64,000 nucleotides of DNA, taken from Nitzschia sp. pyKryTriq1 (Eukaryota > Bacillariophyta > Bacillariophyceae > Bacillariales > Bacillariaceae). Location of the stretch: assembly GCA_956465555.1 (NCBI GenBank), contig OY101129.1, positions 1 to 64,000 of the forward strand. The letters are read 5' to 3'. The notes under the pieces were generated by a model that was not told the DNA's origin, did no database searches, and saw only the letters and a list, made by a program, of their open reading frames with translations. A program made the translations under genes and the position numbers. Shown here one piece after another: positions 7,858-64,000 of the stretch; position 1 is the first letter of the stretch, and every line of letters begins with the position of its first letter.

Positions 7858-10800
7858 CTAATTCTGCCCCTCGCAGCACGACGATTCTTCGTCTATGTAT
7901 TCGATAAAGAGCGACCCAGGATCAGAATCAGAATCAACGGCGACGTGGATCAGAATGTTTTCCGTCTCTCTGCAAAGTGCAGTCCAGGACCACCAAAAAC
8001 CACCTTCTCCTTCGCAACCAAACGTGTCGATTGGCGTGAAGGCGGAACAGGTGGCCTCTGCAATGTCTTCATTTTTAGGAAAACTAAAGAGTTCGACTTC
8101 CAAATTCCCCTTATAGCCCTCCCCCATTTCAATATATATCTCCCCGCCACCACAGTCTTTACAAACAAAAAACATGTCGAGAGATCCTCCCCCTTGTGGT
8201 GGTGCGTATTCTCCGTACGTCCCACATCCTTCAGGTTCGCCGCATTCGCCGCCACAACCCTCCTGATAACCGAGCCAACGACTGTAAGGATGGGTTTTCC
8301 AGTTAATGTCACATCCACATGCTGCGTCTGGGTTGCAACCTTCGGGAAAGCAACCTTCTCCCCCTTCGCAGCGTTCTCCTGTACAGCATTCACAAGAATT
8401 GCATAGGCAATTCTCAACTTTGGTTTTGTCATCATAGAGATAGCCGAAATCCTTGTCAAAACATGGGAGCTTCTCCAGAATGAATTCGATAGTCAAAAGA
8501 ATTCGCTGTTGATCGTATCGCCAATAAGCTAGTAGGCTCATTGGGATTGGCAATTCTTTGGCAACAAATCGAGTCGGCATCGCACAACACGGCACTGGGG
8601 ACAACAATGGTGCCATCGGGGCAGCCTAAATCACCACATGTTGTTTCTTCATCTTCGTATGGGATGATTGACAACTCAAAGTCGGGAAGCGCACCACCGC
8701 CTGGGGGGAGATCAATGTATATATAATCTCCTCCCTCTACTTTGTACATGACAAAGTTACCCGTGGTGCCAGGCTCGGGAATACACTGGTCAGCATTTTC
8801 GTACCAATCCAGCAAAGAAGTGTCCCCGATCGGTGCCTTTTTGTCATTGAAATCCGCAGTAACCGGCAAGGTTCCGACTGCCTCGTCTCCGCAAGAAGGC
8901 CCAACGTAAATAGTCCCCTTACATTTACCAGATATGAGCACCACAAAAGTACCCTTCTCTTCAAGAACAAACTTTCCCGGTGCCTCTCGGAGATCGGCTA
9001 GAACCATTTCCGAAAGAGTTTCCACCGCCTCCCATAGTTTGCACGGCAATAGATCGTCAGCTCCTGATCCAACATTCTTCCACAATTGAATCGCGGTGCA
9101 CTTAGCGCTATTCACATCATTCTTTACAACGATGGTGTCGCCTTTTCTGCCATCGTAAAAGAAAGCAACTTTCAGCGCATTGTTCTCGATCTTGTCAAAG
9201 TCGTCTTCTTCCGGCAGGCTGGCAGTTTTGGCATCATCGTAATTGCCAGTTTCAAAGACTTTTGGTGTGTCTGTTATTATCTCGATATCATCTCCATCAA
9301 AACACGACAGTGGCTCCGACGGAGCCATACTGGGGGAGGCACTGGGAGTTCTTGACTCTTGGCGATCAACAACTTGAACCTGATTAACTGCTCTTTGAGC
9401 ATTGGCGCCCCCACTCAATGCTGCAGCTAGCCAAGTGGAGAAATCTTCCCCGAAACGCGCAGCTGCTCCGTTTGGATTTCCATTGATCGAGAAGCGAAGT
9501 CTTAACGTGGTCGAAACAAATCTCCAGTCTGGCTGTAGCTTGCGACCATGCTGATCCAGAACAAAGTCTTCTTCTTCATGGTCGCCTTCTTCCAAATGTC
9601 GACGACGACAACCACCGGCAAGAATGGTAGCAGGATCCAAGAACAGAAATGAGATCTGGTTGTAGTTGGGCTCGCAAGGAAAGGGATAGTCCAATCTCTT
9701 CTGATTGTTGTACGTTGACAAAAAGTCTGTCGTCAGCGTCGTGACATCGGCGTCAGTCATACATTGCCCGTCCGTGCGTCGGACAGAGAAATTGATCGGG
9801 AATTCCACTTCGGGTCCTGTAGGAACAACGGAGCACTGCACTTCCGTCGCCACGGGCAAGCCGCAGATCGACGGATGCGGATCCCATGGAGCAGTACCAA
9901 AGACAGGTCTCAGCGCTTCCAGTACTGCCGCCAGGCTGGGGGCGCTCTTTTTACCTAATGCACCAGCATCACACACGCATGTCGTAGTTGCAAGTCGTCG
10001 TTCACCACGATTGGGTTCATCCATTTCGTGGCCAACGTGACGACCCGCCCCTCCCAAAAGGTCAAAATCAAAATCGAGATCGAGGAACTCAAGTTCTCTC
10101 TGTCTGGTCGCGCTGCTATTGCCGAAGAGCGGAATCGGAGAGCCAAGGGCTTGACAGCCACCACAGAAGCCAGTCACACTGAATTCGGCAACGTAGTTGA
10201 AGCATCCTGGAGGACTTTGCTGCAAGTCGCGACCACGGATGTTCAGTCTTCGAGTGCTACTGACCCGCCGAACGGTACCTAGCTTGTACGTCAACGAAAT
10301 GCTGTTGCGAAAGTACTCGTCACAGAATTGCGGTACCAGCTTGTTGTACGCGTTCGCAATAGCGTTTCCTAGCCCTTGAAGATCACCAACATTGTTCGAT
10401 AGCGTGACCCACTGGTAGGCCGAAAAGCGAAACCTGAGAGTGTCAATGGTAAAGGCTTCTTGGGGCTTGGAGCAATCGACTTTACTCAGATCGACCTTCG
10501 GTTCGCCTACTATTGTCAGATTCTGACTCTTTTCCGTTACTTTCGTTTGTATGTCCTCCACGAACGAAGTAACATTCAGTTGAGGAGAGAAAGGAACGGA
10601 TCCAATCGGGCAGTAGCAGTCCGACTCTGGTCCGTCCGTCCTCTCCAGACCAGTAACTGGGTCGATTTCTAAGAAACGAGGAGTACTCGGATCAAGAATC
10701 GAAGACCAACTTTGGTAGTTGTCGGGCGCTGACGAAGAGCCTAACATCATCCTTCTATTGCTGACTTGATTGGTGCCAAAGAAGTTGCTCGGACAGCCGT

Positions 10801-13453
10801 TGCAGACTCCTGTGGCCGAGAGCAGGACAAACGCAGTCGCTGGTGGCGGGGTGAAAGTCGGAGCCGACGAGGGTGCCGATGATATGTTCAGAAGAAGCAG
10901 CTCGTCTTCCAGTACTGTGGGAGCTACAGTTCCGTCTCCGTCCTGAAGAGTACGGGAAAGACGTCGTTCCGGTGTCTCGGTTTCGTTCGAGCCAACTTCC
11001 AGACTGTTGTACACAAAGTTCAGAAAGAATTCCGAGTCGGTCACGAACCCGAAGAGGTCGTTACATTGGGTCTCGTTCCCGCCATTGACCAGAGCGCGCA
11101 GTACCTCAACGTAGGCCTCCTCTAGGATTTGGGCCATCGCTTCTGGTGTGAGTGCATCGTCCAGCTGCACCTCCAACAAGATGTTCGTCGCGAAAGCTCT
11201 GCCAAAGTCGCATTCGGTGGTATTCCCGATACAGGTCAACGACGATGTTGTTGTAGTGAGAGCTTCTTGGAGGACAGGGTCCATGGCATCAGTAACATCC
11301 GCCTCCAAGACGGCTCGTTGCGGTAGGTCAGCATCACATTCACACGTCTGGTCCTCCATCCGGCGACCTCTTCTGTGTGATGATGGTCCTTCTTCTTGTA
11401 CTACAGATAATCGTCGACCAAAGCCCCCAACGAGTGCATTATCGGCCAATGCTTGTTCTTCCTCAGTTGGAAACCCATAGACTTCTACCGAGTTGGCGTC
11501 ACAACCAAAGCATTCCATGTCCAGTTCTAGTTCGAATGGGATGCTAGTACCATCGGCCCGTAAATCACCGACCTTCACCACGCGAGCAGCCTTGACTCTT
11601 CGGTCAAACGGATCGCATACAGTACCTTGCAAGCTTGCGTAGGACCTCACAAAGGCGGCAGCAATCTCGTTCTTGACTTCTTCTGTAAACTCGGGGTCGG
11701 CTGCATCGGTGCATGTGTACTGCAGCTCGAGAGTAATGTTCTTCTGAAACATGGGGCTGACTTCCGTAGTACAAGGATATCGGTAGACGAAGTCGTCGCT
11801 CGGTACCTGACGAATCTTGGTGATATTGAGACCAGTTTCTTTTTCAATTCCTTCTTCGAATTCTTCAATCTTGGGCAGTGTCACCACGATCGTAGTGTCC
11901 AAACCGCAAAAGCAGTTGGACTTGGCTTCAATATCAGCCAGCTCTCGTAGTAGGCGTAGGTCTTGTTGTTGTTGTTGTTGCTGTTGCCGACTAGTAGTAG
12001 TACTAGCCGAGGACTTGTGGGTTGTTTGCATGGCCTTCTCAAAGAGAGCCAGCTTTCTCCCACTGACCTGATTGGAAAGAAAGAGATCGTTGCCGCAGGC
12101 TTGACATACACCAGAGGTCAGAATGATAATAGGAAGCTCGCCTTGTTCTGGCGTGGTAGGGGTACCAAAAGTCGGACTTGCCGATACAGCAGCAACAGTA
12201 TCAAAAGTCGGACTTGTCGTTGGGACGGGAGTGGATGTCGGCGACGAAGACTGAGTAGGGGAGGAAGATGGCGCGTCCTGGAGTAGGCGATGTCCGCCGA
12301 GACGATTTCCGGAAAGCTCGGATTCGTCGTCTTCTTCTACAACAAGATCAGTAGAAGACGTCTCAGTCTCCATCAAAAGGCGTCTTTCCTCGTCTTGGAA
12401 GATCACCCGGACGCTCTTGAAAACACGAAATTCGGGATTGCATGTCGCTGGATCGTCGGCTGCGAAAATCGAGTTGAGAATCTCCAAGGCTTTGGCTTCC
12501 AGTTCAGCAGAAGGCAACGCTCTTGCCGCCGCTCCATCGGCAAAGGTCACCTCGATGGCAGAATCAAAGATGGCTCCAAAATCGCAGTCGGCCACGGACA
12601 GGTTTGGGCAATCCAAGGTGGAAGTGATATTCACGAGCCTTGCTTGGAGTTCTCCGATCACGTCCCTCTCTTGCATGGCACGGTCCGCAATGGGATCGAC
12701 AGGGCAGGTACAGTTTCGTTCCTGTAGACGGCGCCTTGTTCTTCTTCGCGTGTTGTCACTCACCGAGGAGAGATCCAGGCCCGGGATGTCGTAGAGGCCG
12801 ATACCGGCAACGTTACAGCTCTCATCATCGCTCTCCAAGCAGTACAGGGTACCGGTCACTTCGACCTCGATTCCAAGCTTGCCTTCGTCGGTCACGGTTC
12901 CTTCGTCAACAATGGTAGCAGTGTCTACCTGACGAAAGTACGGATCGCAGTATTTGCCGGCCAGGCTGTTGAAAGAAAGGACGTAGGCGCCAGTCAGGCT
13001 GGCCTTGTCATTCTCCGAAAGCGTACCACACGCTTGATTGAGCTCGATAATGGTGCGGAAGACGAAAGGAATCGCCACTTCTCCAGGGCACGCTTGGAGG
13101 TTCCGTCCAGCAAAAAGCATGAGAGGATCCGCATCATTAGAACTACCGGTAGCAGTTTCCGTATCAGCAGGAATGCTACCGGATTTGGTTGCTCCTTCTT
13201 CGCCGCCGCCGGTGGTCTCCAATCCAAGAACCATCATCTTGTTGCTGCCTCCTCCAAGCTCCGAGTCGACCTTTTCAATGATGAGTTTGCGGATATCGTC
13301 GTCGGTTGTAGCAGGCTGACCGCCGGCAGTGATGGACGTTCCATCAGCATCGAGTACCAGTCGACCTCCTCGTCCCCCATCGACCAGTAGCAGCCCGAAC
13401 GCAATGGTGCCCAAGATGGACGGCAAGGGAATGAGACACATTCCTTTCTTCAT
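7858..13453 (-). CDS. Giant secreted Cys-rich modular protein, gene 1 (frameshifted)
   Basis: First member of the giant paralogue family, about 1864 aa if read through one frameshift. It starts MKKGMCLIPLPSILGTIAF, a likely signal peptide. It lacks the roughly 150-residue N-terminal domain of genes 2 and 3 and joins them at TTDDDIRKLIIEKV. Modules are delimited by C-x-C sites (NCTCP, NCFCG, TCECD, DCYCP, TCVCD), each preceded by basic R-x-L motifs such as RRRLQE and GRRLS, and by C-x2-C sites. Ser/Pro/Thr linkers separate some modules. The frame runs to a TGA after HSGEAPMF near 8456. The adjacent frame (7858 to about 8470) continues with CFDKDFGYLYD, which matches gene 2 CFDKEFGFLYD. One extra base in the GGG at 8465-8467 explains this. 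It is either a true frameshift, which removes about 200 C-terminal residues, or a sequence error. The C-terminal module is type A, as in gene 2. Extracellular location is likely; function unknown. Confidence 0.8.
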
Positions 13454-16227: not shown

Positions 16228-16278
16228 AGTTCACAGCAATCAATATGACTCCCCCCCTCCATAATATGTTCCCAATGA

Positions 16279-16431: not shown

Positions 16432-16451
16432 TCAACTCACTGCCTACTCGC

Positions 16452-16460
16452 GAGAGGGAG
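16452..16460 (+). other. Polypurine tract of the Copia remnant
   Basis: GAGAGGGAG immediately precedes the TG that opens the LTR. This is the normal site of plus-strand priming in LTR retrotransposons. Confidence 0.65.
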
Positions 16461-17739: not shown

Positions 17740-20700
17740 TTAAAGAAAAGGAGCTTCACTGGGCGCTTGTTCAACAATAGGAGCGTCATTGGGCGAAAAG
17801 GTGTCAAAGCTGCACCAGTCCGGCTCATAAATGATCTGAACAGGCTCCGTCGGCTCAGAACACGTACTGACTTGGATCAGAATGTCTCCTTTCGTCACAT
17901 CGCAGAGAGAGTTGTACTCGCAGGAGTAGGAACCGAGGTAGGTGAAGTCGGAACAGGTGGCTTGTGTAATGTCCGCATCAAAATTGAAAAAACGAACATC
18001 AAACACACCAATCTCCCCACCAATGGATATCTCCCCGCCACTACAGCCTTTACAAACAAGAAACATGTTGAAAGGGTCACAATCAAGTGAACGCCTTGTT
18101 TGTAGGGGGCCTTCACTAGAGTACGTCCCACATCCTCCAAACGGTTCACCGAGCCAAGCACTGTAGGGATGGGTTTTCCACTGAATCTCGCATCCACATG
18201 GTTCCGTTTCGCCACAATTACAATTTTCAACTTTTGTCTTGACATCATAGAGAAAGCCGAACTCCTTGTCGAAGCAAGGAGCGTCCCCTGAATGAATTCG
18301 ATATTGAAAAGAATTCTCGGCAGATCTGAGAGCCACTAAGCTGGGCTCATTGGGAATAACAATCTTTTGATAGCAAGTTCCGAACTGGAACAAATCGAAA
18401 CTCGAGACAACAATCGAATTGTCGCATCCGAGATCACCACATGGTTCTGCGTTCGCGTAGGGGATAATCGAAAGCTCAAACGCCGGAGGGGTGTTGCTGT
18501 CCGGGGCGAGATCAAAGTATAGATATTCTCCTTGCTCCACTCGGTACATGACAAAGTCTCCTGTGGTGTCAGCAGTATCGACACCGCAACCTTTTTCGTA
18601 CCAGTCAGACATAGAAGTGTCCTCGATCGTCGCCTTTTTGTCATTGAAATCCGCAGTAATCGGCAAGGTGCCCACTGCCTCATCTCCGCAAGAAAGCCCA
18701 ACGTAAATAGAGCCAGCGCAATCGCCAGATATGAGAACCATAAAGGTGCCTTTCTGTTCCAAAATGAATTTTCCTGGTGCCTCGTCCAGATCGTTCAGAG
18801 CCAAATCCGAAAGACTTTCGACTGGCTCCCAATCTTGGCACGGTAATATGTTGTCTGTTACTGTCCCGACATTCTCCCAAAATTGAATCGCATCGCACGC
18901 GCTGGTACCCTGATCCGTTTTGACAACGATCGTATCACCTTGTTTGCCGTCGTAAAAAAAAGCAACCTTCAGAGCCTCATTCTCGATGGTGTCGAAGTTG
19001 TTATCCTCCGGAAGACTGGCAGTTTTCGCATAATCGTAATCGCCGGATGTTTGAAAGTCTTGTGGGTCTTCAGTTATCGTCTTGATATCAGCTTGCCGAA
19101 AACAAGACACTGGCCCCGTCGGAGCTGAACTTGGAGACGAGCTGGGCGACCGAGATATTTGCTCGGCTCGGATCTGATAGGTTCCACCACTCCTAATTTG
19201 AGGGTTCACCACCGCCGTCAAAAAGACATAAAACTCATCGATCGCGCTCTGCGAATTACCCAGTACGGACTGCCAAAGTTGAAAAAGTCCACTCACAATA
19301 TAGTAGTCAGTGACGAGTCGTCTACGCCCATGCAGACCGGCCACATCGCCTTCTGCTTCTTCTTCTTCTGCTTCTTCGTCGCCTTCTATCATGCGACGAC
19401 GACAACCCCCCGCGAGAACGGACGCCACATTCACGGGAGTGCCCATCGCGATCTGGTTGTATTTCGGATCGCAAGGAAAGGGAACCTGGGCGCGTTTCTG
19501 ATCATTGTACCTGTTCACAACAGCCGCGCTTATGGCATTAATATCAGCGGCAGTCACGCATTGCCCGTCCGTACGTCGGAAAGAGTATGCGAAATCGAAT
19601 TGCACAGTCGGTGCTGTTCCCGTGAAAGTAAGTGGGCATTGAACCTCAGTCGCAACGGGCAAGCCGCAGATGGATGGATGCGCATCCCATGGAGCGGTAC
19701 CAAAGACAGTTTTCAACACAGCCTGTACTGCCGCAAGACTAGGGGCGCTCTTTCGACCTTGTGCACCAGCATCACAAACGCACGTCGTCGCTTCGAGTCG
19801 GCGTTCACGATGACGCTCATCCATTCCATAGCCAGCTTGGTGACCCTCGTCGCCGTCCAAGTCAAGGTCGTCGAAATCGAGGAAAAAATTTAGTTCTCTC
19901 TGCCTGGTGACACTGCTATTTCTAAAGAGGGGGATTGGGCTGCCAAGGGCTTTGCAGTCTCTACATAGGCCAGTCACACTGAATTCGGCAACATAGTTGA
20001 AGCATCCAGTAGTTTGCTGCAAGTCACGACCGCGGACGTTATGTCTTCGAGTGCTACTGGTGACCCGCCTAGCCGAACCAGTCTTGTACGTCAGCGAAAT
20101 GGTGTTGCGAAAGTACTCATCGCAAAACTTGGGCACAAGACTGTTGTAGGCGGCCGCGATCGCGTTTCCTAGCCCTTGAAGGTCACCAACATTGTTCGAT
20201 AACGTGACCCATTGGTAGGCCGAAAATCTAAATTGCAGAGTATCAATTGTAAAAGTTTCTTGGGGCTTGGAGCAATTCACTTGACTCAGATCGACCTTCG
20301 GTTCACCGACAATCGTGATATTCGCGCCCTTTTCGGCGACTTTTGCTTGAAGGTCCTCGACGAATGAAGTTACATTCAGTTGGGGAGAGAAAGGGATCGA
20401 TCCGATCGGGCAGTAGCAATCCGACTCTGGACCATCCGTCGTCGTCTCGAGACCAGTGACAGGGTCGATTTGTAAGAAACGAGGAAGACTCGGATCAAAC
20501 GATGTCAAACCGTGATGGTAATAGTCGAACTCGGATGACGAATCAAGCATCATCCTCCTTCCATTGCTGACTTGATTGCTGCCGAAGAAGTTGCTGGGAC
20601 AGCCGTTACAAACACCCGTAGCCGAGAGCAACACAAAGGCAGTTGCTGGGGGCGGGGTGAATGTCGGGGCCGACGAGGGCGATGATGACACGTTGAAAAC

Positions 20701-23541
20701 TAGCAGCTCGTCCTCAAAGACCGAGGGATCCAACGTTTGTTGTTGTTGGTCTTGAAGCATACGACTAAAACGTCGTTCTGGTGTTTCGGTCCCATTGGAG
20801 CCGACTTCCAAACTGTTGTACACAAAGTTGAGAAAGAACTCCGAGTCGGTCACGAAGCCGAAAAGGTCGTTACATTGGGTCTCGTTCCCACCACTGACCA
20901 GAACGCTCAAGGTTTCGACGTAGGCCTCTTTCAGGATTTGGGCCATCTCTTCTGGTGTCAGAGAATCATCAAGCTGAATTTCCAGCAAGATGTTCGTCGC
21001 AAATGTTCTACCAAAGTCGCATTCGGTAGTGTTCCCGATACAGGTCAACGATGTTGGAAGAGCTCGCAAGATAGGGTCCAAGGCAGCAGTAACATCCGCC
21101 TCGAGGACGGCCCGTCGCGGTAGGTCGGCATCACATTCACAGGTCTGGTCTTCCATCCGACGACTTCTTCGTCGTAGGGGTACTACTCCTAGACCTTCTT
21201 CTTGTTCCGATAGTGTGCGTCGACGACCGAAACCTCCCGAGAGGGCGTTGTCGGACAAGCCTTGTTCTTCCTCAGTTGGAAAACCATAGACTTCGACAGT
21301 ATTGATGTCACAACCATAGCAGTTCATGTCGAGTTCTAGCTCGAATGGGACGCTGGTGCCATTGGCACGGAGATCGCCAACTTTGACTACTCGAGCGGCC
21401 GTGACTTGTCGATCAAAGGGATCGCATACGGTGCCTTGCAAGCTTGCGTAGGATGTAACAAATGCTGCAGCAATCTCGTTCTTGACTTCGTCCGTGAACT
21501 CCGGATTTGTCATCGTACTAGCACACGTGTACTGCAGCTCGAGGGTAATATTCTTTTTGAACAGAGGGCTGACTTCGGTAGTACAAGGATATCTGTAGAT
21601 GAAGTCGTTGGGGATCTGACGGGTCATGGTAATATTCAGACCAGTACTGGTTTCGAGAGCTGTCTCGAACTCTTCAATCTTCGGCAAGTTCACGACGATC
21701 GTCGTGTCCAAACCGCAAAAGCAATTGGACTTGGCTTCAATGTCTTCCAACTCTCGCAGTAGCAGGTCTTGGCGACTGGTACCAAACGCTGCATTTCCCA
21801 CGGCCTTCTCGAACAGGGCGCGCTTTCTCGCGCTGACCTGATTGGATAGCTGGAATAGGTCATTCCCGCAGCCTTGACAGACGCCAGAAGACAGAAGGAC
21901 TATAGGAAGCGGGCCTTGTTCTGACGCAGTAGGAGTACCAAAAGTCGGACTTGTCGTTGGGACGGGAGTGGATGTCGGCGACGAAGACTGAGTAGGGGAG
22001 GAAGATGGCGCGTCCTGGAGTAGGCGATGTCCGCCGAGACGATTTCCGGAAAGCTCGGATTCGTCGTCTTCTTCTTCAACAAGATCAGTAGAAGACGTCT
22101 CAGGCTTCATCCAAAGGCGTCTTTCCTCGTCTTGGAAGATCACCCGGACGCTCTTGAAAACACGAAATTCGCGATTGCATGTCGCTGGATCGTCGGCTGC
22201 GAAAATCGAGTTGAGAATCTCCAAGGCTGTGGCTTCCAGTTCAGCAGGAGGCAACGCTCTTGCCGCCGCTCCATCGGCAAAGGTCACCTCGATGGCAGAA
22301 TCAAAGATGGCTCCAAAATCGCAGTCGGCCACGGAAAGGTCCGGACATTCCAAGGTGGAAGAGATATTCGCCAGCCTTGCTTGGAGTTCTCCGATCACGT
22401 CCCTCTCTTGCATGGCACGGTCCGCAATGGGATCGACAGGGCAGGTACAGTTTCGTTCCTGTAGATGGCGGCTTGTTCTTCTTCGCGTGTTGTCGCTCAC
22501 CGAGGAGAGATCCAGGCCCGGGATGTCGTAGAGGCCGATATCGGCAACGTTACAGCTCTCATCATCGCTCTCCAAGCAGTACAGGGTACCGGTCACTTCG
22601 ACCTCGATTCCAAGCTTGCCTTCGTCGGTCACGGTTCCTTCGTCAACAATGGTAGCAGTGTCTACCTGACGAAAGTACGGATCGCAGTATTTGTTGGCCA
22701 GGCTGTTGAAAGAAAGGACGTAGGCGCCAGTCAGGCTGGCCTTGTCATTCTCCGAAAGCGTACCACACGCTTGATTGAGCTCGATAATGGTACGGAAGAC
22801 GAAAGGAATCGCCACTCCTCCAGGGCACGCTTGGAGGTTTCGTCCAGCAAGCAGCATGAGAGGATCCGCATCAGTAGAACTACCGTTAGCAGTTTCCTTA
22901 TCAGCAGCAATACTACTATCGAATTTGTTCGTTCCTTTACCGCCGCCGGTGGTGGGGGGAATCACAAGTCTCTCCAATCCAAGAACCGTCATCTTGTTGT
23001 TGCTGCTGCTGCCTCCTCGTCCGAGTTCCGAGTTGACCTTTTCAATGATGAGTTTGCGGACGTCGTCGTCGGTCGTAGAAGGTTGATTGGCTTCGCAATC
23101 CCTGCAGGCGAAGCCTTCGGCTTGAATAGAGAGGAGCGCCAAATCTTCTTGCTTGATGGTGGTGCTTGTAACAGTAGTAGTAGTAGCCGAGCCTGCTGCT
23201 TCATCTGTAGTACTGGTAGGATCATCTTCTTCTTTTTGGGGGTCAAGGAGAAACACAGTCACTTTATCGATTGACTCTGTGCAAGACGAGGCGGTGGAAG
23301 AAGCACCACCGCTCGAGGCCTTGAATACGTCCAAAATGACCTTTTCCACCCGAGAAATAAGATGGCGACGACTCTCCTTCAGGTCGATAACCACATTGTT
23401 GCTGCTCCCTTGAACGGAAGCTAAATACCACTTGTCCACCGGCTTGTCGCATGCTGTCTTTGAAGCCTCGATATGCGAGGTTCTATCAATCAGGCAGAGC
23501 AGCAGAAAGAAAGCTATTAGTCGCAAAAAGTCCAACCTCAT
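17740..23541 (-). CDS. Giant secreted Cys-rich modular protein, gene 2
   Basis: A single-exon frame of 1933 aa from the ATG at 23541; a further in-frame ATG at 23595 adds 18 residues but would precede the signal peptide. The N-terminus RLDFLRLIAFFLLLCLIDRTS is a clear signal peptide. A domain of about 150 residues (CDKPVDKWYLASVQ ... FACRDCEANQP) follows, then five degenerate Cys-rich modules. The C-x-C module starts lie near residues 364, 607, 801, 1039 and 1253. Each is preceded by a C-x2-C (or C-x7-C) site and a basic loop with R-x-L motifs. NxT/S sites are frequent. A Ser/Pro linker (SRSPSSSPSSAPT) leads to a C-terminal region of about 460 residues of type A, also seen in gene 1. The stop is a TAA where gene 3 has CAA, so it ends eight residues earlier than gene 3. 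No membrane anchor is visible. Likely an extracellular or cell-wall protein of unknown function. Confidence 0.85.
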   Translation of the reverse strand: MRLDFLRLIAFFLLLCLIDRTSHIEASKTACDKPVDKWYLASVQGSSNNVVIDLKESRRHLISRVEKVILDVFKASSGGASSTASSCTESIDKVTVFLLDPQKEEDDPTSTTDEAAGSATTTTVTSTTIKQEDLALLSIQAEGFACRDCEANQPSTTDDDVRKLIIEKVNSELGRGGSSSNNKMTVLGLERLVIPPTTGGGKGTNKFDSSIAADKETANGSSTDADPLMLLAGRNLQACPGGVAIPFVFRTIIELNQACGTLSENDKASLTGAYVLSFNSLANKYCDPYFRQVDTATIVDEGTVTDEGKLGIEVEVTGTLYCLESDDESCNVADIGLYDIPGLDLSSVSDNTRRRTSRHLQERNCTCPVDPIADRAMQERDVIGELQARLANISSTLECPDLSVADCDFGAIFDSAIEVTFADGAAARALPPAELEATALEILNSIFAADDPATCNREFRVFKSVRVIFQDEERRLWMKPETSSTDLVEEEDDESELSGNRLGGHRLLQDAPSSSPTQSSSPTSTPVPTTSPTFGTPTASEQGPLPIVLLSSGVCQGCGNDLFQLSNQVSARKRALFEKAVGNAAFGTSRQDLLLRELEDIEAKSNCFCGLDTTIVVNLPKIEEFETALETSTGLNITMTRQIPNDFIYRYPCTTEVSPLFKKNITLELQYTCASTMTNPEFTDEVKNEIAAAFVTSYASLQGTVCDPFDRQVTAARVVKVGDLRANGTSVPFELELDMNCYGCDINTVEVYGFPTEEEQGLSDNALSGGFGRRRTLSEQEEGLGVVPLRRRSRRMEDQTCECDADLPRRAVLEADVTAALDPILRALPTSLTCIGNTTECDFGRTFATNILLEIQLDDSLTPEEMAQILKEAYVETLSVLVSGGNETQCNDLFGFVTDSEFFLNFVYNSLEVGSNGTETPERRFSRMLQDQQQQTLDPSVFEDELLVFNVSSSPSSAPTFTPPPATAFVLLSATGVCNGCPSNFFGSNQVSNGRRMMLDSSSEFDYYHHGLTSFDPSLPRFLQIDPVTGLETTTDGPESDCYCPIGSIPFSPQLNVTSFVEDLQAKVAEKGANITIVGEPKVDLSQVNCSKPQETFTIDTLQFRFSAYQWVTLSNNVGDLQGLGNAIAAAYNSLVPKFCDEYFRNTISLTYKTGSARRVTSSTRRHNVRGRDLQQTTGCFNYVAEFSVTGLCRDCKALGSPIPLFRNSSVTRQRELNFFLDFDDLDLDGDEGHQAGYGMDERHRERRLEATTCVCDAGAQGRKSAPSLAAVQAVLKTVFGTAPWDAHPSICGLPVATEVQCPLTFTGTAPTVQFDFAYSFRRTDGQCVTAADINAISAAVVNRYNDQKRAQVPFPCDPKYNQIAMGTPVNVASVLAGGCRRRMIEGDEEAEEEEAEGDVAGLHGRRRLVTDYYIVSGLFQLWQSVLGNSQSAIDEFYVFLTAVVNPQIRSGGTYQIRAEQISRSPSSSPSSAPTGPVSCFRQADIKTITEDPQDFQTSGDYDYAKTASLPEDNNFDTIENEALKVAFFYDGKQGDTIVVKTDQGTSACDAIQFWENVGTVTDNILPCQDWEPVESLSDLALNDLDEAPGKFILEQKGTFMVLISGDCAGSIYVGLSCGDEAVGTLPITADFNDKKATIEDTSMSDWYEKGCGVDTADTTGDFVMYRVEQGEYLYFDLAPDSNTPPAFELSIIPYANAEPCGDLGCDNSIVVSSFDLFQFGTCYQKIVIPNEPSLVALRSAENSFQYRIHSGDAPCFDKEFGFLYDVKTKVENCNCGETEPCGCEIQWKTHPYSAWLGEPFGGCGTYSSEGPLQTRRSLDCDPFNMFLVCKGCSGGEISIGGEIGVFDVRFFNFDADITQATCSDFTYLGSYSCEYNSLCDVTKGDILIQVSTCSEPTEPVQIIYEPDWCSFDTFSPNDAPIVEQAPSEAPFL

Positions 23542-23595
23542 TTTGTTGTTGTGTTCTGTTGTTGCATGTTGTGTTATGCGTTGCTGTGAAAACAA

Positions 23596-23935
23596 TCATG
23601 CACGGCGCAGACATGCCTTTTTTTTATGTATTATGGGCTTGCTCGTGCTTTTTGGACATTCGGCGTCGGCGCACGGTCGGTGTTGGTTGCAAGTTTCCTT
23701 TTGGCTTGATCGTACAAAATTCGCGGTCTTGCGTCTCGACAAAAATAAGTCCCTTCATCAACATGAATGATGATGCATGCCTGAGGATCACTTTCGAACG
23801 TACATTATATGCCCCCCTGTTCTGAGGACACAAGCTTCTTCCAATGATACTGAAGGAAGATTCGAAGCTTCCGATTGCCCCATCAATGGCCCCGATCTTG
23901 GCAGTCCTGCCTGTCAGCGCGTGAGACACATGAAA
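23596..23935 (-). promoter_or_regulatory. Upstream region shared by genes 2 and 3
   Basis: This 5' flank of gene 2 is recognisably homologous to the 5' flank of gene 3 (33150-33520). Shared blocks include CTTGCTCGTGCTTTTTGGACATT, ATGCATGCCTGAGGATCACTTTCGAA (in part) and CTGTTCTGAGGACACAAGCTTCTTCCAATGATACT (in part). Conservation outside the coding region suggests promoter/5'UTR function or recent common duplication. Short upstream ATG frames occur between here and the start codon at 23541. Confidence 0.45.
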
Positions 23936-24149
23936 TAATAATCAACGCATGGGACTCCAAAGCAAATGGAGTAGAGCACTGTGGGCGTGCCAAGCCAAAA
24001 CATACACACCGGCAGCTGTCCATCACCAAGCAAAGTGGCGAGAACAAGGCGTGAGAGAGGTTGAGTCTGGTAAGAATCCACGATATTCAAGAAAGACTCT
24101 TGTCTAATCGCCAGCATACCAGTAGCGGCCAACTATTATTTGATCGTCG

Positions 24150-24285
24150 CGTACGTAGCGTGGGTAGAGTACTGGTACGGACCGGTACTGGTGTGCCAGG
24201 TACAGTACTGTACAAGTACAGCGTCTACCGGAACGGTACTGTACGTACTGTATGTACCTGTAGCGCTACCGGTCGGGCGGGGTGC
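24150..24285. other. GTAC/ACCGGT-dense palindromic cluster
   Basis: About a dozen GTAC or ACCGGT words occur within 130 bp, including GGTACAGTACTGTAC. The cluster lies in the spacer downstream of gene 3' and upstream of gene 2. It is repeated exactly in unit 2 at about 26778-26913. It is capable of several alternative hairpins. Confidence 0.5.
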
Positions 24286-24480
24286 GGCGCATGGACCGGG
24301 CTGATGTCACTTCGTTGGCGGGGACAAGCCGCCGACGTTTGCCATTATTTGCACCGTCTTCGTGATAAGTTGGGATGCTGTCACAAAGCAATCAGCAGAA
24401 GGGCGCGGGGTTGTTGTTGGTTCACTATTCGGAGCCTCATGGGGCGAGAGCAAAAGCTCCTTGCAAGGAACTCCATTAGG

Positions 24481-26212: not shown

Positions 26213-26565
26213 CTGTGAAAACAATCATGCACGGCGCAGACATGCCTTTTTTTATGTATTATGGGCTTGCTCGTGCTTTTTGGACATTCGGCGTCGGCGC
26301 ACGGTCGGTGTTGGTTGCAAGTTTCCTTTTGGCTTGATCGTACAAAATTCGCGGTCTTGCGTCTCGACAAAAATAAGTCCCTTCATCAACATGAATGATG
26401 ATGCATGCCTGAGGATCACTTTCGAACGTACATTATATGCCCCCCTGTTCTGAGGACACAAGCTTCTTCCAATGATACTGAAGGAAGATTCGAAGCTTCC
26501 GATTGCCCCATCAATGGCCCCGATCTTGGCAGTCCTGCCTGTCAGCGCGTGAGACACATGAAATA
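26213..26565 (-). promoter_or_regulatory. Duplicated gene 2 upstream region, now before gene 3'
   Basis: Copy of the gene 2 5' flank, in the same orientation, placed directly upstream of the truncated gene 3' by the tandem duplication. On the minus strand the copied part ends ...GATTGTTTTCACAG, which also resembles a splice acceptor, and is joined to CGATGAGTTTTATTTC of gene 3. Whether it drives transcription cannot be seen from sequence. Confidence 0.4.
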
Positions 26566-51228: not shown

Positions 51229-51442
51229 TAGAGGCGATCCCTCCTTCACAAACTTCACAAGACATCCAAGATCGCCATCACCACTACATTTATGATAAGT
51301 CGTTCGTGCCCCTGACACTTCACGACTACCTTACGATTACAAAAGATTCATCTCTCAAAACAACCCAGAAAAATAGTCTCACTTCTTTTAATTTCATCTA
51401 CTTTAAATCACGAATTGAATCCCGTAACTACGAGTCGTTGCA
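51229..51442 (+). repeat. 214-bp perfect direct repeat, copy 1
   Basis: Identical as far as I can compare to 51623-51836 (period 394 bp). It lies inside an open frame from 51051 to 51542 (163 codons, containing YDKSFVPLTLHDYLTITKD). I do not recognise that frame; it may be a fragment of a captured gene. Confidence 0.9.
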
Positions 51443-51622: not shown

Positions 51623-51836
51623 TAGAGGCGATCCCTCCTTCACAAACTTCACAAGACATCCAAGATCGCCATCACCACTACATTTATGATAAGTCGTTCG
51701 TGCCCCTGACACTTCACGACTACCTTACGATTACAAAAGATTCATCTCTCAAAACAACCCAGAAAAATAGTCTCACTTCTTTTAATTTCATCTACTTTAA
51801 ATCACGAATTGAATCCCGTAACTACGAGTCGTTGCA
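51623..51836 (+). repeat. 214-bp perfect direct repeat, copy 2
   Basis: Second copy of 51229-51442. The flanks differ immediately: copy 1 continues TTCTGATC and copy 2 AGTTGTACC. It also lies in an open frame (51526-51867, 113 codons). The rest of 51837-52693 shows GTACCGGTAC palindromes, CTCT runs and no supported gene. Confidence 0.9.
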
Positions 51837-54032: not shown

Positions 54033-56816
54033 CTAGCATCCACAACAACTGCAATTCAAGGCCGCCGCTGTCGATGACGTTGAGGAAGAGGAGGATTGAC
54101 AATTGATCTCCAGCAGTGGTTCCACCACTTGGGCCATTTGACACAATGGTTCGAGATCTCCCACAACATGCAAGTCCGAATTCCCTCTGAGTTTCAGCAC
54201 TTGTAGATTCGTCAAGGCGACAAGAGACGAAGCGGGAATCGTCCCGGTCAAATCATTGATACTGATATCAAGGTATTGAAGATTGACCAACAACGACGGA
54301 TCGAGAGGAATCATAGAACCTTCGAGGGCATTGGATCCCAAATCCAGATATTGTAATTTGGAATTAGTACTGCTGTTGCTCCAGTCAAAACTATTCCACG
54401 GAATACTTCCCGTCAGACCATTGCCATGAAGGGATAGGGATGTCAAATTGGGCATGCTGCTGCTACTGCTACTGCTGCTGCCGAAGAAAACATCGGGCAA
54501 TGGCGTATCGGTAATATCACCATTATCCCAGTGAAAGATTTCGAGAGAAGATAATCGATTCATGGCCCGTAGGGATTGGGTAGTCATTTTCACGCCACTC
54601 ATTGTCAATACACGTAGATTGGTCAATAACAACCAAAATTCTTGATACGTTGATAATCGATCCAGGTCGCTTCGTTGATTTCCTTCCATTCGTAATTCTT
54701 CGAGATTGGTCATGGCATAAACACCTGGATTGGCCGAACCAAACATTCGATTATTGTGCAAATGTAAAATTCTCATATGGGTGGTGGCGGCGGCGGCGGC
54801 GGCTGCTGCCTGCTCCTCCTCTTCCTCCTCCATTTCATCGGGAATAAGTAGTTGTCCAACGAATTGATTATCATTCAAATACAGTTCCTGCAATCGTATC
54901 AAATGACTCTTGCTGCCAGCAGCACCAGGCGCAATCACACTGGGAATTCCACCTCCAATTTGATTGTGGGACAAGTCGAGTATTTGAAGATTCGTCAAGG
55001 AACCCAAATGTGAAATGTGGTGAATTTGTTGAAGGCCTTCTTGATCGCCGGAACGGACTTGATGAGAAATCTTGACGACTTGAAGATCCTTGGCCAGTAA
55101 TTTGATTTCTTCTGGAATAGATCCTTGTAAATTATTGGGCTCGTCTATAATATTTAATACGTAAGAGTACAATATGTGAGAAATGTTGAGTAGAAGTAGT
55201 AAACAGGGTATAAACAAGCATAACATGTGTAGTTAGTACGAACGAACGAACTTACCCAATATCAATTGTACCACTTTTCCTTGTTCATTACAAAAGACTC
55301 CTTGTTGAGCACTACCACCACCACTACCACCACTATTATTGATACCATTCCATTCACAGACGCTGACGGTCGGCGTCAAGAAATTCCAATCGTTCGTCCA
55401 AGAAGCTGGTGAAGAAGAAGGTTCTCCTCCTCCTGGATCGTTGTCGTCGGCCATGGTGGCTACTTCGTTTTGAGGGCGGCTGCTGGTGGCAAAATAAAAG
55501 ACCGCCAAGGCGTACCGTACCTCTAATTCATCATAGTAGTACGCAGCAGTAGCATGATCATCCTCATCCATCGCCATGTTGGTGATATTGTTGTAATAGT
55601 TGTAGTCATCGGATTGAGCGGCAGCAGCAGCAGCAAGCCATGCAATGGCCAAGGATTGAGGCGAATCAGGATTGGCAAAGACCGTGGCAGGATTGGAAGA
55701 ATAATTCCGTAGTCGGAGATACAAAATGGCTTCTTGTTCACTCAGACCGGGCGGCAAGAGTGTCGTCGGAGCTTGTGTCGGTGGTGGACGAGGGGAAGAG
55801 GAGAAAGTGCTGGAAGAAGCAGAAGCAGAAATACTGTCTGAGTCTTGATTTCCCCCTAACAACAATGTGACCAGCACAACAATCGAAATCAATATCACTC
55901 CACCGACACAAATCAAGGCAATCCCCCGTGCCACGTCGCCTTTGTACATATCATCATCATCATTATCATGTTGAGCTGATGATGATGGTTGAGTGGTGGG
56001 CTCACAAGATGCCCCCACCGCTTCGGGATCTTCTTCCACCCACGACGACCGGCGGGTCGATAGCATGCGACTGAAAAGAGAAGGTCGACGGCTACTACTA
56101 CTACTAGTAGTAGTATTCGTTCTTCTTCTGGCCGGGGTCGTTGTTGTTGTTTCTCCTCCTCCCCCCGCCGTCATGCCAGTAGTACGAGTACTAGCAGTAA
56201 ATCCTCCTCCTCCTCCTCCTTCTCCTCTTGTCCGAGAAGAAGAACTCTGCATCATCATCATCATCATGGAACGACGAAATGGAGCTCGCAAATCGGCCGT
56301 CATGCGCTGCCTCCATTGGTGGTGCTGGTGCTGGTTGTTCGAGATGAAGGGAGCTCGAAATGGAACATGGACGGCTCCCGGGCGCTGTACTTCCTCACCA
56401 TATCTTGTCAACGCTGGGGGTGGTGGTGGTGGTGGTACTGCAGCCGTAATAACATTATTATCTTGAAACGCATCATCTGAAGAATCATCATTATAGCCGG
56501 CCTCATTTACCACTGCTAGTAGATGATGTTGTTGATGCTGATGCTGATGATTCACACGTGTCGTCGGCATGGTGGTGATGATGGAACCGGCGGGCAAGGT
56601 GGCTAGTTCATCTCCAGGAGCGGCGGCTGCTGATGCTGATGCTGATGCTGATGCTGATGCTGATGCTGATGCTGATGCTGATGCTGATGCTGATGCTGAT
56701 GCTGATGCTGATGCTGATGAAGACATGCCCATCATCATTTCATCCTCGTCCATGCTGAGCAATATGAGTCCTCCGCCGGAAGAGGATGATGATGATGATG
56801 CTGCTGCCGCTGCCAT
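54033..56816 (-). CDS. Membrane-anchored LRR receptor-like protein, two exons
   Basis: Exon 1 is 56816-55256 and exon 2 is 55144-54033. A GTAAGT donor at 55255 and a TATAG acceptor at 55146-55145 define a 111-bp intron, and splicing restores LILDEPNNLQGSIP and gives 890 aa. The N-terminal 290 residues are low complexity, including an (AS)n run from a GATGCT hexamer repeat, and probably cytoplasmic. A single TM helix (IALICVGGVILISIVVLVTLLLG) lies at about residues 296-319. A Cys/Trp-containing cap (SVCEWNGI, GVFCNEQGKVVQL) precedes about nine leucine-rich repeats such as LTNLQILDLSHNQIGGGIP and LVNLQYLDISINDLTGTIP. It ends in a Cys-rich tail. No kinase domain is present. This layout recalls LRR receptor-like proteins of diatoms; ligand unknown. 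Confidence 0.85.
56636..56719. repeat. (GATGCT)14 hexanucleotide repeat
   Basis: Perfect hexamer repeat in the coding sequence of the LRR protein, giving alternating Ala-Ser. In-frame, so length changes would be tolerated. Confidence 0.95.
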
Positions 56817-59816: not shown

Positions 59817-62800
59817 CTAGTAGGGAATGGGACAATTACACACGCCCGGCTCAAATACGATCCTAATTTCGCCGGGATATGCATTCATGTGAATCAGAAT
59901 ATCTTCCTGACCATCCGGAGCAAGGTTGCAGACACAAGCGTATTGCCCGAACTCAGTAGCAGCCAAAAGTGTTATCTCATTACAGGGGGATTTGTCGATT
60001 TTTCGGACAGTCGAGAGATAAACTGACCCGCCTGCTCCATCAAACCCAGAAAAACTAATTTCAATTTTACCTTGAGCGCATCCTTGACAGAGAAAAAACA
60101 TGTTCTCCTTTGGAATCACCTGCGCTGTACGTCGTCGTTGTGGTCTTCCGTTTGGAGGAGTCCCCTCGTTTTCACGTGGCGTTATTGCCTTTGGAGTCCC
60201 CTCCTCCTCTTCACGTCGTCGTCTTTGTCGACGTCTTTGTGGAGGTTCACATCCACCAAAATACGGCAACCCAGGATTGAGCGGTTGATTTGTCCACACC
60301 GGCCTGCATGCGCCTTGACAACCGGGAGGGCCCCCGCATGGGCAGTTAATGAGGTCGATGTTTTGATAGACGAAACCTAGGTCTGGGTCAAAGCAAAGAG
60401 CGTCTCCACCATGAAGTCGGTAGTTGAAATTGGCAGAGGACGTGAGCGCAACTAGACTGTCGTCGGGAACGTCAACCGGTTCGCAACAAACTGAATCCAA
60501 GTCTTGATTGTAGGAGCAAAAGTCGTCACTTTGAAGAATAAGCGCGTCGCCCTTGTCACAACCCAGGTCTCCACATGTTTCTCCGTCATATGAGATGACT
60601 GATAGCTCAAAATCAGGCAAGTTCCCCTCGGGGGCGATGTCAAGGTAGAGCAATCCTCCTTTGACGTCGTTTTTTGCTACATTGTACATCACAAAGTTAT
60701 CCGCGCCATTCGTTGCTGCGCATGTACCGTCGTACCATTGAGCAAATTTGCTATCAACGATTGGGGTATCAATGTCTTTAAAAGCTGTCAGCGCTATAAT
60801 TGGGAAGCCAGGGGTTGCCTCGTCACTGCAAAAACCCACCGGATCGGTCGGAGCTAAACTGGGAGAAGAGCTCGGCGACCGAGAAAGTTTTTCGGCTCGG
60901 ATCTCAAATGTTCCATCGGACCTAATAGTGTTCATCACTGTCGTTAAAAAGGCGTAAAACTCCTCGAGCGCGCTCTGCGAATTGCCCAGTACTGACTGCC
61001 ACAGCTGAAAAAGTCCACTCACAGTATAGTAGTCAGTGACGAGTCGTCTACGCCCATGCAGACCGGGCACATCGCCTTCTGCTTCGTCGTCTTCTATCAC
61101 ACGACGACGGCAGCCCCCGGCGAGAACCGACGCCACATTCACGGGAGTGCCCATCGCGATCTGGTTGTATTTCGGATCGCAAGGAAAGGGAACCTGGGCC
61201 CGTTTCTGATTATTGTACCTGTTCACAACAGCCGCGCTGATGGCATCGATATCAGCGGCAGTCACGCATTGCCCGTCCGTACGTCGGAAAGAGTATGAGA
61301 AATCGAATTGCACAGTCGGTGCTGTTCCTGTGAAAGTAGCTGGGCACTGAACCTCAGTCGCAACGGGCAAGCCGCAGATGGATGGATGCGCATCCCATGG
61401 AGCGGTACCAAAGACTGTTTGCAACACAGCCTTTACTTCTGCTAGACTGGGGGCTCTCTTTTGACCTTGTGCAAATGCATCACAAAAGCACGTCGCCGTC
61501 TCAAGTCGTCGTGGACGATGACTCGCATCCGGTCCGGAGCGACCCTCGTCAAGGTCGTCGAAATCTAGAAATTCGAGCAGTTCTCTCTCCCTTGTGACGC
61601 TGCTGTTGCCGAAGAGGGGGATGGGCGAGCCAAGGGCTTGGCAGTCTCTACATATGCCCGTGACACTGAATTCGGCAACATAGTTGAAGCATCCTGCAGT
61701 TTGCTGCAAGTCACGACCACGCACGTTCTGTCTTCGAGTGCTACTGTTGAGACGTCTAGCGGAACCAGTCTTGTACGTCAACGAAATGGCGCTGCGAAAG
61801 TACTCGTCGCAGAACTGTGGAACAAGACTGTTGTAGGCGGCCGCGATCGCGTTTCCAAGCCCTTGAAGATCACCAACATTGTTCGATAGCGTGACCCACT
61901 GGTAGGCCGAAAACTCAAACTTGAGAGTATCAATAGTAAAGACTGATTCGGACTTGGAGCAATCGACTTGACTCAGATCGACTTCCGGTTCACCTACGAT
62001 CATGAGCTGGTTGTTCAACTCTGAAACTTTTGTTTGAATATCCTCGACGAACAAGGTAACATTCAGTTGCGGAGAGAAAGGGATCGATCCGATCGGGCAG
62101 TAGCAGTCCGACTCTGGGCCATCCGTCGTCGTCTCGAGACCAGTGACAGGGTCGATTTGTAAGAAACGAGGAAGACTCGGATCAAACGAAGACCAATCTT
62201 CGTAAATGTCGGGATGTTCGTCCGCCAAAGAGCCAAGCATCATCCTTCGACCGCTGACTTGATTGCTGCCGAAGAAGTTGCGGGGACAGCCATTGCAGAC
62301 GCCGTACGCGGTAAGCAGGACAAATGCAGTGGGGGGTGTAGTCGGAGCTGATGAGGGCGCCGATGACGATACGTTGAGAAAGAGCAGGTCCTCCTCAAAG
62401 GATACGTTGAGAAAGAGCAGGTCGTCCTCAAAGACCGAGGGATCCAATGTTTGTTGCTGTTGGTCTTGAAGCATACGACTAAGACGCCGTTCTGGTGTTT
62501 CGGTCCCATTGGAGCCGACTTCCAGACTGTTGTACACAAAGTTGAGAAAGAATTCCGAGTCGGTCACGAACCCGAAGAGATCGTTACATTGGGTCTCGTT
62601 TCCACCACTGACCAGAGCGCTCAAGGTTTCGACGTAGGCCTCTTTCAGGATTTGGGCCGTCTCTTCTGGTGTCAGAGAATCATCGAGCTGCACTTCCAAC
62701 AAGATGTTCGTCGCAAAATTCCGACCAAAGTCGCATTGTGTTGTGTTCCCAATACAGTTTGATGATGATGTTGTTGTTGTTGTTGTTGTAAGAGTTTGCA

Positions 62801-64000
62801 GGATGGGGTCCAATGCATCCGTGACATCTGCCTCCAACACGGCTCTTCGAGGCAGGTCCACGTCGCATTCGCACGTCGTCTGGTCTTCCACCCGGCGATG
62901 TTTTCGGGGTACTCGCAGTCGCCCTAGTCGTCGACCAAAACCTCCGACGGGAGCGTTTTCAGGCAAGGATCGCTCTTCCTCTGTTGGGAAACCATATACT
63001 TCGACCGTGTTGATGTCACAGCCATTACATTCCAAGTCAAGCTCCAGCTCGAATGGGATGCTGGTGCCCTCGGCACGGAGATCGCCCAACTTGATGACTC
63101 GAGCAGCCTTGACTCGTCGGTCAAAGGGATCGCATACTGTGCCTTGCAAGCTTGCGTAGGATCTCACAAACGCGGCAGCAATCTCGCTCTTGACTTCGTC
63201 CGTGAACTCCGGGTCTGTCGTGCCAGTACCAGCGCACGTGTACTGCAGCTCGAGAGTAATATTCTTCTGGAACAGCGGGCTGACTTCGGTAGTACAAGGA
63301 TATGTGTAGATGAAATCGTTAAGGACCTGACGGGTCGTGGTAATATTCAGACCAGTACTGGTTTCGAGAGCTGTCTCGAATTCTTCAATCTTGGGTGGTG
63401 TCACCACGATCGTAGTGTCCAAACCACAAAAGCAATTGGACGTGGCTTCTATATCAGCCAACTCTCTTTGTAGAACGGGGTCGTCGGGCCGGCGGTCAAC
63501 ATTAGTAGTACTACTAGATGACTTGTTCTTGGCTTTCGCCTTTAGTACTTTCTCCTCAAAAAGAGCCCGCTTTCTTCCATTGAGTTGATTTGAAAGAGTA
63601 AAGAGATCGTTGCTGCAGCCTCGACATACACCATATGTCAGAAGGATAACTGGAAGACCGCCTTGGCCTGTGCTCGAAACAGGAACATCCAAGGAGGTCG
63701 GACTGGCAGATGCAGTCGGCGATTGAGACAAAGAAGGGGAAGAAGACGGGGCCTCCTGCTGGAGTTGGCGATCATGCCCAGCGGCAGCACGCTTGGATTC
63801 TTCGTCTTTCTCCACTTCAATAGCAGAGAGAAGGGACGCAGCGCCCATTGTACCGAGGCGTCTCTCGTCTTGAAAGATTACCTCGACTCTATTGAAAACA
63901 CGAAACTCCGGATCGCATGTCTCTGGATCGTTTGCTGCAAAGATTGTATTGAGAATAGCCAAGGCCTTGGCCTCCAGTTCACCAGGAGGCAAAGCTCTGG
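59817..64000 (-). CDS. Giant secreted Cys-rich modular protein, gene 4 (5' part outside window)
   Basis: The frame is open to the window edge, so N-terminus and signal peptide are not seen; about 1394 residues are present. It covers the family from the end of module 1 (LEAKALAILNTIFAANDPETC) through NCFCG, TCECD, DCYCP and TCFCD modules with the R-x-L linkers. Unlike genes 1-3 it goes directly from the Ser/Pro linker (SRSPSSSPSLAPT) to CSDEATPGFP. It thus lacks about 140 residues carrying the CF-x-EADIETITEDP ... SIYVGLSCGDEA domain. The C-terminal module is type B, as in gene 3, with an Arg-rich insertion and a Cys-containing end CNCPIPY instead of NEAPFGAP repeats. It has an 11-residue duplication EEDLLFLNVS. 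Extracellular; function unknown. Confidence 0.85.
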   Translation of the reverse strand, partial: RALPPGELEAKALAILNTIFAANDPETCDPEFRVFNRVEVIFQDERRLGTMGAASLLSAIEVEKDEESKRAAAGHDRQLQQEAPSSSPSLSQSPTASASPTSLDVPVSSTGQGGLPVILLTYGVCRGCSNDLFTLSNQLNGRKRALFEEKVLKAKAKNKSSSSTTNVDRRPDDPVLQRELADIEATSNCFCGLDTTIVVTPPKIEEFETALETSTGLNITTTRQVLNDFIYTYPCTTEVSPLFQKNITLELQYTCAGTGTTDPEFTDEVKSEIAAAFVRSYASLQGTVCDPFDRRVKAARVIKLGDLRAEGTSIPFELELDLECNGCDINTVEVYGFPTEEERSLPENAPVGGFGRRLGRLRVPRKHRRVEDQTTCECDVDLPRRAVLEADVTDALDPILQTLTTTTTTTSSSNCIGNTTQCDFGRNFATNILLEVQLDDSLTPEETAQILKEAYVETLSALVSGGNETQCNDLFGFVTDSEFFLNFVYNSLEVGSNGTETPERRLSRMLQDQQQQTLDPSVFEDDLLFLNVSFEEDLLFLNVSSSAPSSAPTTPPTAFVLLTAYGVCNGCPRNFFGSNQVSGRRMMLGSLADEHPDIYEDWSSFDPSLPRFLQIDPVTGLETTTDGPESDCYCPIGSIPFSPQLNVTLFVEDIQTKVSELNNQLMIVGEPEVDLSQVDCSKSESVFTIDTLKFEFSAYQWVTLSNNVGDLQGLGNAIAAAYNSLVPQFCDEYFRSAISLTYKTGSARRLNSSTRRQNVRGRDLQQTAGCFNYVAEFSVTGICRDCQALGSPIPLFGNSSVTRERELLEFLDFDDLDEGRSGPDASHRPRRLETATCFCDAFAQGQKRAPSLAEVKAVLQTVFGTAPWDAHPSICGLPVATEVQCPATFTGTAPTVQFDFSYSFRRTDGQCVTAADIDAISAAVVNRYNNQKRAQVPFPCDPKYNQIAMGTPVNVASVLAGGCRRRVIEDDEAEGDVPGLHGRRRLVTDYYTVSGLFQLWQSVLGNSQSALEEFYAFLTTVMNTIRSDGTFEIRAEKLSRSPSSSPSLAPTDPVGFCSDEATPGFPIIALTAFKDIDTPIVDSKFAQWYDGTCAATNGADNFVMYNVAKNDVKGGLLYLDIAPEGNLPDFELSVISYDGETCGDLGCDKGDALILQSDDFCSYNQDLDSVCCEPVDVPDDSLVALTSSANFNYRLHGGDALCFDPDLGFVYQNIDLINCPCGGPPGCQGACRPVWTNQPLNPGLPYFGGCEPPQRRRQRRRREEEEGTPKAITPRENEGTPPNGRPQRRRTAQVIPKENMFFLCQGCAQGKIEISFSGFDGAGGSVYLSTVRKIDKSPCNEITLLAATEFGQYACVCNLAPDGQEDILIHMNAYPGEIRIVFEPGVCNCPIPY
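62368..62433. repeat. 33-bp tandem duplication in gene 4
   Basis: GATACGTTGAGAAAGAGCAGG plus CCTCAAAG is present twice in tandem (62368-62400 and 62401-62433, one mismatch). It adds eleven residues in frame just before the SSAPSSAPT linker. The paralogues have one copy. Confidence 0.9.

Follow-up and report, generated by a model that had tools for sequence, protein, structure and literature searches.

The first 64,000 nucleotides of contig OY101129.1 (assembly GCA_956465555.1) of the diatom Nitzschia sp. pyKryTriq1, hereafter the window, carry four large minus-strand genes (g1 to g4) that encode tandem modules of approximately 200 residues each. Five times per gene, a cysteine-bounded loop, as a rule bearing R-x-L motifs, recurs in these modules. 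The device is real, occurs throughout the family in this genome and exceeds chance expectation. We propose, with a probability of about 0.48, that the proteins are secreted arrays of SEA-like modules whose loops are cut after R-x-L while disulfides hold the two halves together, giving a nicked scaffold of the extracellular space or cell wall. A first-pass annotation, made from the letters of the window, had pointed out the cysteine motifs and R-x-L loops and had suggested that the precursor is processed there. Its observation is confirmed and its processing interpretation is partly supported: loop processing is plausible, and the geometry is most likely that of a stapled, probably cut loop inside SEA-like modules.

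The modules were delimited with a hidden Markov model (HMM) built from five g3 segments, which detects five good modules and a weak sixth in each gene. When 18 single modules from the window (M1 to M5 of the four genes, except M1 and M2 of g4, which lie outside the window or are cut by its end) are aligned, six columns are invariant, every one a cysteine: the first stands where helix 1 ends, a C-x2-C pair (C-x7-C in M1) and a C-x-C pair follow, and the sixth lies close to the module end. Each of g1 to g4 has five loops running from C-x2-C, or the C-x7-C of M1, to C-x-C; the first loop of g4 lies past position 64,000 and was taken from the adjoining contig sequence (L028). The C-x2-C/loop/C-x-C spacing described in the first-pass annotation accordingly holds for four of the five loops per gene and fails for M1, and the C-x-C sites that it listed for gene 2 (CTCP, CFCG, CECD, CYCP, CVCD) are all present in g2.

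The loop set comprised 45 loops from 12 family open reading frames (ORFs) of the genome, each taken from C-x2-C (or C-x7-C in M1) to the next C-x-C, after removal of two matches to the C-terminal domain and leaving out other spacings (C-x3-C, C-x4-C). R-x-L occurs in 41 of the 45, compared with 17.0 (sd 2.9) when every loop was shuffled separately within its own composition; 0 of 2000 shuffles reached 41. With near-duplicate genes removed, 22 of 26 loops contain R-x-L (shuffled, 9.0), and the same loops hold 36 sites where 11.1 are expected. Neither the mirror motif L-x-R (9 versus 11.1) nor R-x-[MIVAF] (13 versus 17.0) is in excess there. Chance formation of R-x-L from arginine-rich loops is ruled out by the shuffles and by the L-x-R control inside loops. 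The four loops lacking the motif are 16, 18, 20 and 55 residues long, the third of them carrying R-R-M. Ten non-family ORFs of the window gave 25 R-x-L against 25.1 expected, 5 R-x-L-[QE] against 3.0 and 34 L-x-R against 24.8.

The arginine richness noted in the first-pass annotation extends to dibasic sites, with 39 RR against 10.3 in shuffles and 18 R..[RK] against 12.2 in the 26 non-redundant loops, and matches to the subtilase family (PF00082) exist in the genome. A kexin- or furin-like subtilase could cut the loops at dibasic or R-x-x-R sites, R-x-L being a by-product of their composition. We regard this as unlikely, since the R-x-L excess survives per-loop shuffling and is not shared by the two control motifs, and since several sites have no dibasic (RFLQ, RTLQ, RNLE, RELE). 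The surroundings of the 83 family R-x-L sites are also biased: Q directly follows L in 28 of them (7.8-fold enriched), E is enriched 2.5-fold one position further on, and R is enriched 5.1-fold before the first R and likewise between R and L. The motif is thus better written (R)R-x-L-Q/E; the form R-x-L-x-[E/D/Q] fits 32 of the 83 sites where 6.7 are expected. Three paralogous ORFs (c1a, c3a and c16a) additionally have an RYLQ or RQLQ site between a signal-peptide-like start, identified by eye, and the first module. The module part of another paralogue (L066) has no loop of exact spacing, and two of its three variant loops contain R-x-L by eye (RDLQ and RTLQ included). The first-pass annotation held that an absence of conserved R-x-L sites among homologues would speak against processing; among the paralogues of this genome no such absence is seen. 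At the level of alignment columns, 11 of 14 R and 12 of 14 L positions are conserved among the four window paralogues, compared with 335 of 480 other loop columns, too few columns to carry weight.

The genes are under purifying selection. The dN/dS of the module core between window genes is 0.26-0.27, and that of the loops, calculated over aligned codons with insertions and deletions uncounted, is 0.21-0.37 in five gene pairs and 0.52 for g2 against g3, a very close pair with tiny divergence. Because the loop values are similar to those of the core, aligned loop codons appear constrained about equally. A pseudogene array is ruled out for g2 to g4 by intact ORFs and a core dN/dS of about 0.26; g1 has a frame change. 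Between g2 and g3 the modules are nearly identical (dS 0.09) and the C-terminal domains have diverged (dS 0.70), a contrast across 17740-33138 that points to gene conversion or chimerism.

To place the loop in the fold, we used an AlphaFold2 model of a single module, g3 M3 (30601-31155, minus strand, bounded by the alignment). The predicted order is beta-alpha-beta-beta-[disordered loop]-alpha in a compact model with a predicted TM-score (pTM) of 0.61; the loop (30718-30906, with CYGC, an RTL site plus R-R-M, and CEC) has a per-residue confidence (pLDDT) mostly below 50. A fold search with the model returned SEA domains (MUC16, TMPRSS6, GPR126) as the best matches, below significance, and others including PheRS and ACE2, which we take as a common arrangement. 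In eight arrays (g2, g3, g4, c1a, c3a, c16a, c16b and c12), the first element is strand 1 and the last is helix 2, as read by eye. Together with the predicted fold, these array ends indicate that a single SEA-like module probably contains the loop, placed after strand 3 and before helix 2, and that modules are joined directly, so that a cut at the loop would probably nick a module, not release or separate modules. Strands 1-3, helices 1-2 and loop disorder are features of the prediction, to which we would add strand 4 and the disulfide pairing by inference.

The first-pass annotation had instead made the loop a device joining modules, whose cutting would free them or leave them loosely linked. 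The unit boundary of a tandem array is ambiguous by sequence alone, which leaves some room for that arrangement. Against it, the eight arrays consist of complete units with the loop inside, and a unit from strand 1 to helix 2 models compactly with SEA as its best fold matches. On the array ends and the single-module model, a moderate-confidence prediction and a by-eye reading, a joint between separate modules appears less likely and is not supported.

Several results weigh against our own reading of a cut, intramodule loop. The single-module model is of moderate confidence and lacks strand 4, and the two-module AlphaFold model is too poor for use. The g1 ORF starts inside M0, so that the register argument does not apply to it; like g1, the c2a and c14a ORFs start inside a module and give register support neither way. 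Outside the loops of eight non-redundant proteins, R-x-L (47 versus 27.9) and L-x-R (41 versus 27.4) are both mildly enriched. As L-x-R is equally enriched there, only within loops is the excess of plain R-x-L specific; R-x-L-[QE] is in excess both inside (21 versus 1.6) and outside (16 versus 3.2) the loops of these proteins. The missing strand 4 and the register of g1 somewhat lower the probability of the favoured reading, to the value given above, and raise that of the between-module model, which stays quite improbable.

SEA domains are extracellular and often cut within the domain, the halves staying together, and the SEA-like heterodimerisation domain of Notch has a furin-cut loop. Family modules share with SEA domains the predicted beta-alpha-beta-beta-alpha order and the non-significant best fold matches, but differ in the four-cysteine loop that separates strand 3 from helix 2 and in their tandem arrangement in a diatom. 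The ferredoxin-like SEA fold runs beta-alpha-beta-beta-alpha-beta, and the model shows this order up to the last strand, which it lacks. A Pfam scan at E <= 1 of g1 to g3 and eight other ORFs (two of them LNR ORFs) gave no SEA match, and the GS[VI][VI] motif is absent from 12 of 12 ORFs. A motif of the G-S-V-V type is the SEA self-cleavage site, which many SEA domains lack. LNR (Notch) repeats (PF00066) occur in ORFs directly following the family member on contig C14 (L027, 4903-7000). These ORFs probably represent further exons of that gene, which would recall the layout of Notch, LNR repeats with a SEA-like domain.

The loops might also never be cut. Disulfide-closed tandem modules could then serve as an adhesive or a mechanical spring that releases hidden length under tension, their arginine-rich loops binding polyanions (phosphorylated silica proteins or polysaccharides, for example). 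The giant tandem modular architecture, the N-x-S/T sequons, of which g1 to g3 have 13 or 14 apiece, and the PT-rich and proline-rich tails of family paralogues would suit such a role. It leaves unexplained why L stands exactly two residues after R and is followed by Q or E, and why the same motif recurs at the propeptide position; we consider it doubtful, if worth keeping in view.

In the mechanism that we favour, the family would be secreted tandem-repeat proteins of the diatom wall or extracellular matrix, each unit of about 200 residues forming a six-cysteine, SEA-like module of ferredoxin type. After strand 3 and before helix 2, most modules would extrude a disordered loop that C-x2-C and C-x-C anchor at its two ends. 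Cutting of the loop would take place after R-x-L, in the form (R)R-x-L-Q/E, within the silica deposition vesicle or along the secretory path. The N-terminal propeptide of some members would be removed likewise. The module halves would remain together through the sheet and the disulfides, and the product would be a nicked, disulfide-held scaffold with new exposed ends, often an N-terminal Gln prone to pyroglutamate formation. In some members the loop may carry a functional insert, e.g., a silaffin-like lysine-rich stretch.

RXL is a proposed processing site of diatom silica proteins, and its removal has been observed in silaffins; the sources describe its general role as still to be proven and its protease as unidentified (PMC5525289, PMC5647440, PMC4557024, PMC5501833). 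As in silaffins, cingulins, frustulins and silacidins, R-x-L in the family lies in apparently secreted precursors, with signal-peptide-like starts seen by eye; in the biosilica proteins it is also reported at repeat ends (PMC4557024). Silaffins, cingulins and silacidins are described as random coil with one or no cysteine (PMC5525289), whereas the family R-x-L sits in loops of six-cysteine modules. Silicanin-1 (Sin1) is a secretory protein with a cysteine-rich region after its RXL site, all 18 cysteines being reported as disulfide-bonded (PMC5525289), and SiMat7-like proteins are described with eight conserved cysteines plus RXL (PMC5501833). Compared by these descriptions, both have a transmembrane helix and an N-terminal RXL, whereas the family has several R-x-L loops in tandem modules. 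Silicalemma-associated proteins (SAPs) are reported to have RXL behind the signal peptide; two of the three also carry a second RXL at the C-terminal side, which a cleavage product seems to match (PMC5647440). They are described as serine-rich transmembrane proteins in a main text that does not use the word cysteine (PMC5647440), in contrast to the cysteine-rich family. The family resembles known RXL and SEA systems, though sequence tests for SEA and, in the window, for silaffin-like proteins were negative.

The silica links of the family are indirect. None of the four window genes contains K[SG][SG]K, nor do the 10 control ORFs, and a silaffin-like screen as described (signal peptide plus repeated KXXK, X = S or G; PMC5501833) selects none of the window genes. 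The two-module paralogue c12 (L063) does share such a run with silaffins: five K[SG][SG]K plus pentalysine windows in a K/S/G-rich stretch at residues 200-262, inside the first C-x2-C/C-x-C loop and directly after R-G-L. One K[SG][SG]K occurs in c16b. Pentalysine windows are nonspecific, being found in c12 and also in g4 and 3 of 10 control ORFs. Eight silicon-transporter matches (PF03842) are present in the genome, in keeping with its diatom origin.

Aspartic-protease matches lie at five places in the genome (C8, C11, C6 and two on C10). The C8 protease (C8:1468443-1469747; L064:44-1348), the one compared with PDB, matched plasmepsin V best (E 5e-18; 67.9 bits, over its residues 64-241 only), followed by BACE2 (1.5e-10); no C-terminal membrane segment was noticed in its ORF by eye. 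Plasmepsin V is reported to process R-x-L-x-E/Q sites such as those of PEXEL, which marks malaria parasite proteins for export (PMC3116508). Oomycetes are described as having enzymes like plasmepsin V, in a tree to which a Phaeodactylum protein was added (PMC3116508). What is shared with that system, as known from sequence, is the R-x-L-x-[E/D/Q] enrichment in the family and a plasmepsin V-like protease in the genome; as a candidate cutter of the loops, the C8 enzyme is a lead, not a link. A literature search pairing silaffin with aspartic protease returned no paper. A bolder proposal would have a plasmepsin V-type protease cut R-x-L-Q/E in the disulfide-stapled loops, giving two-chain scaffolds that show loop inserts, some silaffin-like, to growing silica, with diatom RXL, oomycete RxLR and apicomplexan PEXEL as one old secretory processing system; we rate it a long shot.

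Across the assembly (20 contigs, 40.65 Mb), paralogues of the same layout occur on contigs C1 (L024, L066), C3 (L025), C2 (L026), C14 (L027), C16 (L062 plus a partial one) and C12 (L063). A profile (A2) built without c12, c16a and c16b recovered them from a set of 73 sequences with full-sequence E values of 1e-22, 5e-13 and 4e-17, respectively; the best of 60 shuffled sequences reached 0.08, and ten control ORFs gave no match. Pfam with g1 to g3 returned no family match, NCBIfam a single chance 12.5-bit match, and a PDB sequence search with g3 nothing. No relatives were found among the viral, bacterial and archaeal contigs searched, a set without other diatom genomes. Pfam NifU matches were dismissed, as they fall below the NifU cut-off around CxGC. 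Literature searches, with subscription journals mostly outside coverage, found no title on this family.

Within the window, the first-pass annotation had assigned 7858-64000 to the family; members occupy 7858-33138 and 59817-64000 and beyond, as four genes plus a duplicated 3' fragment, and no family match was found in 35437-58354. The genes and modules listed here are on the minus strand. The g3 gene (27109-33138) is an intact 2009-aa ORF with a signal-peptide-like start by eye, modules M0-M6, a cysteine-rich C-terminal part and NEAPFGAP repeats. By HMM and alignment, its other modules are M1 (31909-32412; loop 32029-32166 with C-x7-C, an R-H-L site and CTC), M2 (31156-31908; loop 31300-31467 with CQGC, RAL and REL sites and CFC), M4 (29842-30600; loop 30001-30201 with CNGC, an RFLQ site and CYC), M5 (29203-29841; loop 29365-29556 with CRDC, RQLE and RRLE sites and CVC) and the degenerate M6 (28699-29202), which lacks the C-x2-C/C-x-C pair and matches the HMM weakly (E 0.017). 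The g2 ORF (17740-23595, 1951 aa) has the same modules as g3. The g1 ORF (8456-13453, 1665 aa) has a shorter N-terminus and a frame change near 8465-8470; the rest of its C-terminal domain is encoded in a different frame (7858-8470) and by blastp matches g2 1773-1911. The g4 ORF (59817-64000) is open at the window end and reaches about 65.5 kb of contig C15, of which the window is the first 64 kb, for a full length of 1882 aa. Identity is 83% between g2 and g3, and 72% and 71% between g1 and these two; g4, as far as it lies within the window, shares about 74% identity with g2 and g3 and 64% with g1. The duplicated 3' part of g3 (24481-26211), identical over 576 aa, belongs to a 2630-bp tandem duplication at 23583-28840 (99.96% identical), which is either very recent or an assembly artefact.

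The window is subtelomeric, with an AACCCC telomere-type repeat at 1-301. This repeat (TTGGGG) also terminates contig C10, whereas the usual description of diatom telomeres is TTAGGG. A broken family remnant (L029) lies within 1714000-1720000 of C10, about 3 kb from its TTGGGG-type end, which suggests that the family may move between chromosome ends. Elsewhere in the window are a 41-bp tandem repeat near the telomere (6393-6629, 5.8 copies), a 214-bp exact direct repeat (51229-51442 and 51623-51836), and two abutting ORFs at 54033-56816 that by eye jointly resemble a leucine-rich-repeat membrane protein.

The RXL substrates described in the papers cited above are either disordered peptides or proteins that have one or two RXL sites close to a terminus. 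If our reading is true, a family with about five R-x-L loops in its cysteine-rich modules would represent an additional class of diatom extracellular proteins, folded and nicked. The sharper site R-x-L-Q/E offers a search target in proteomes, in which the predicted pyroglutamate N-termini may escape ordinary searches, and the plasmepsin V-like candidate makes the question of the RXL protease testable.

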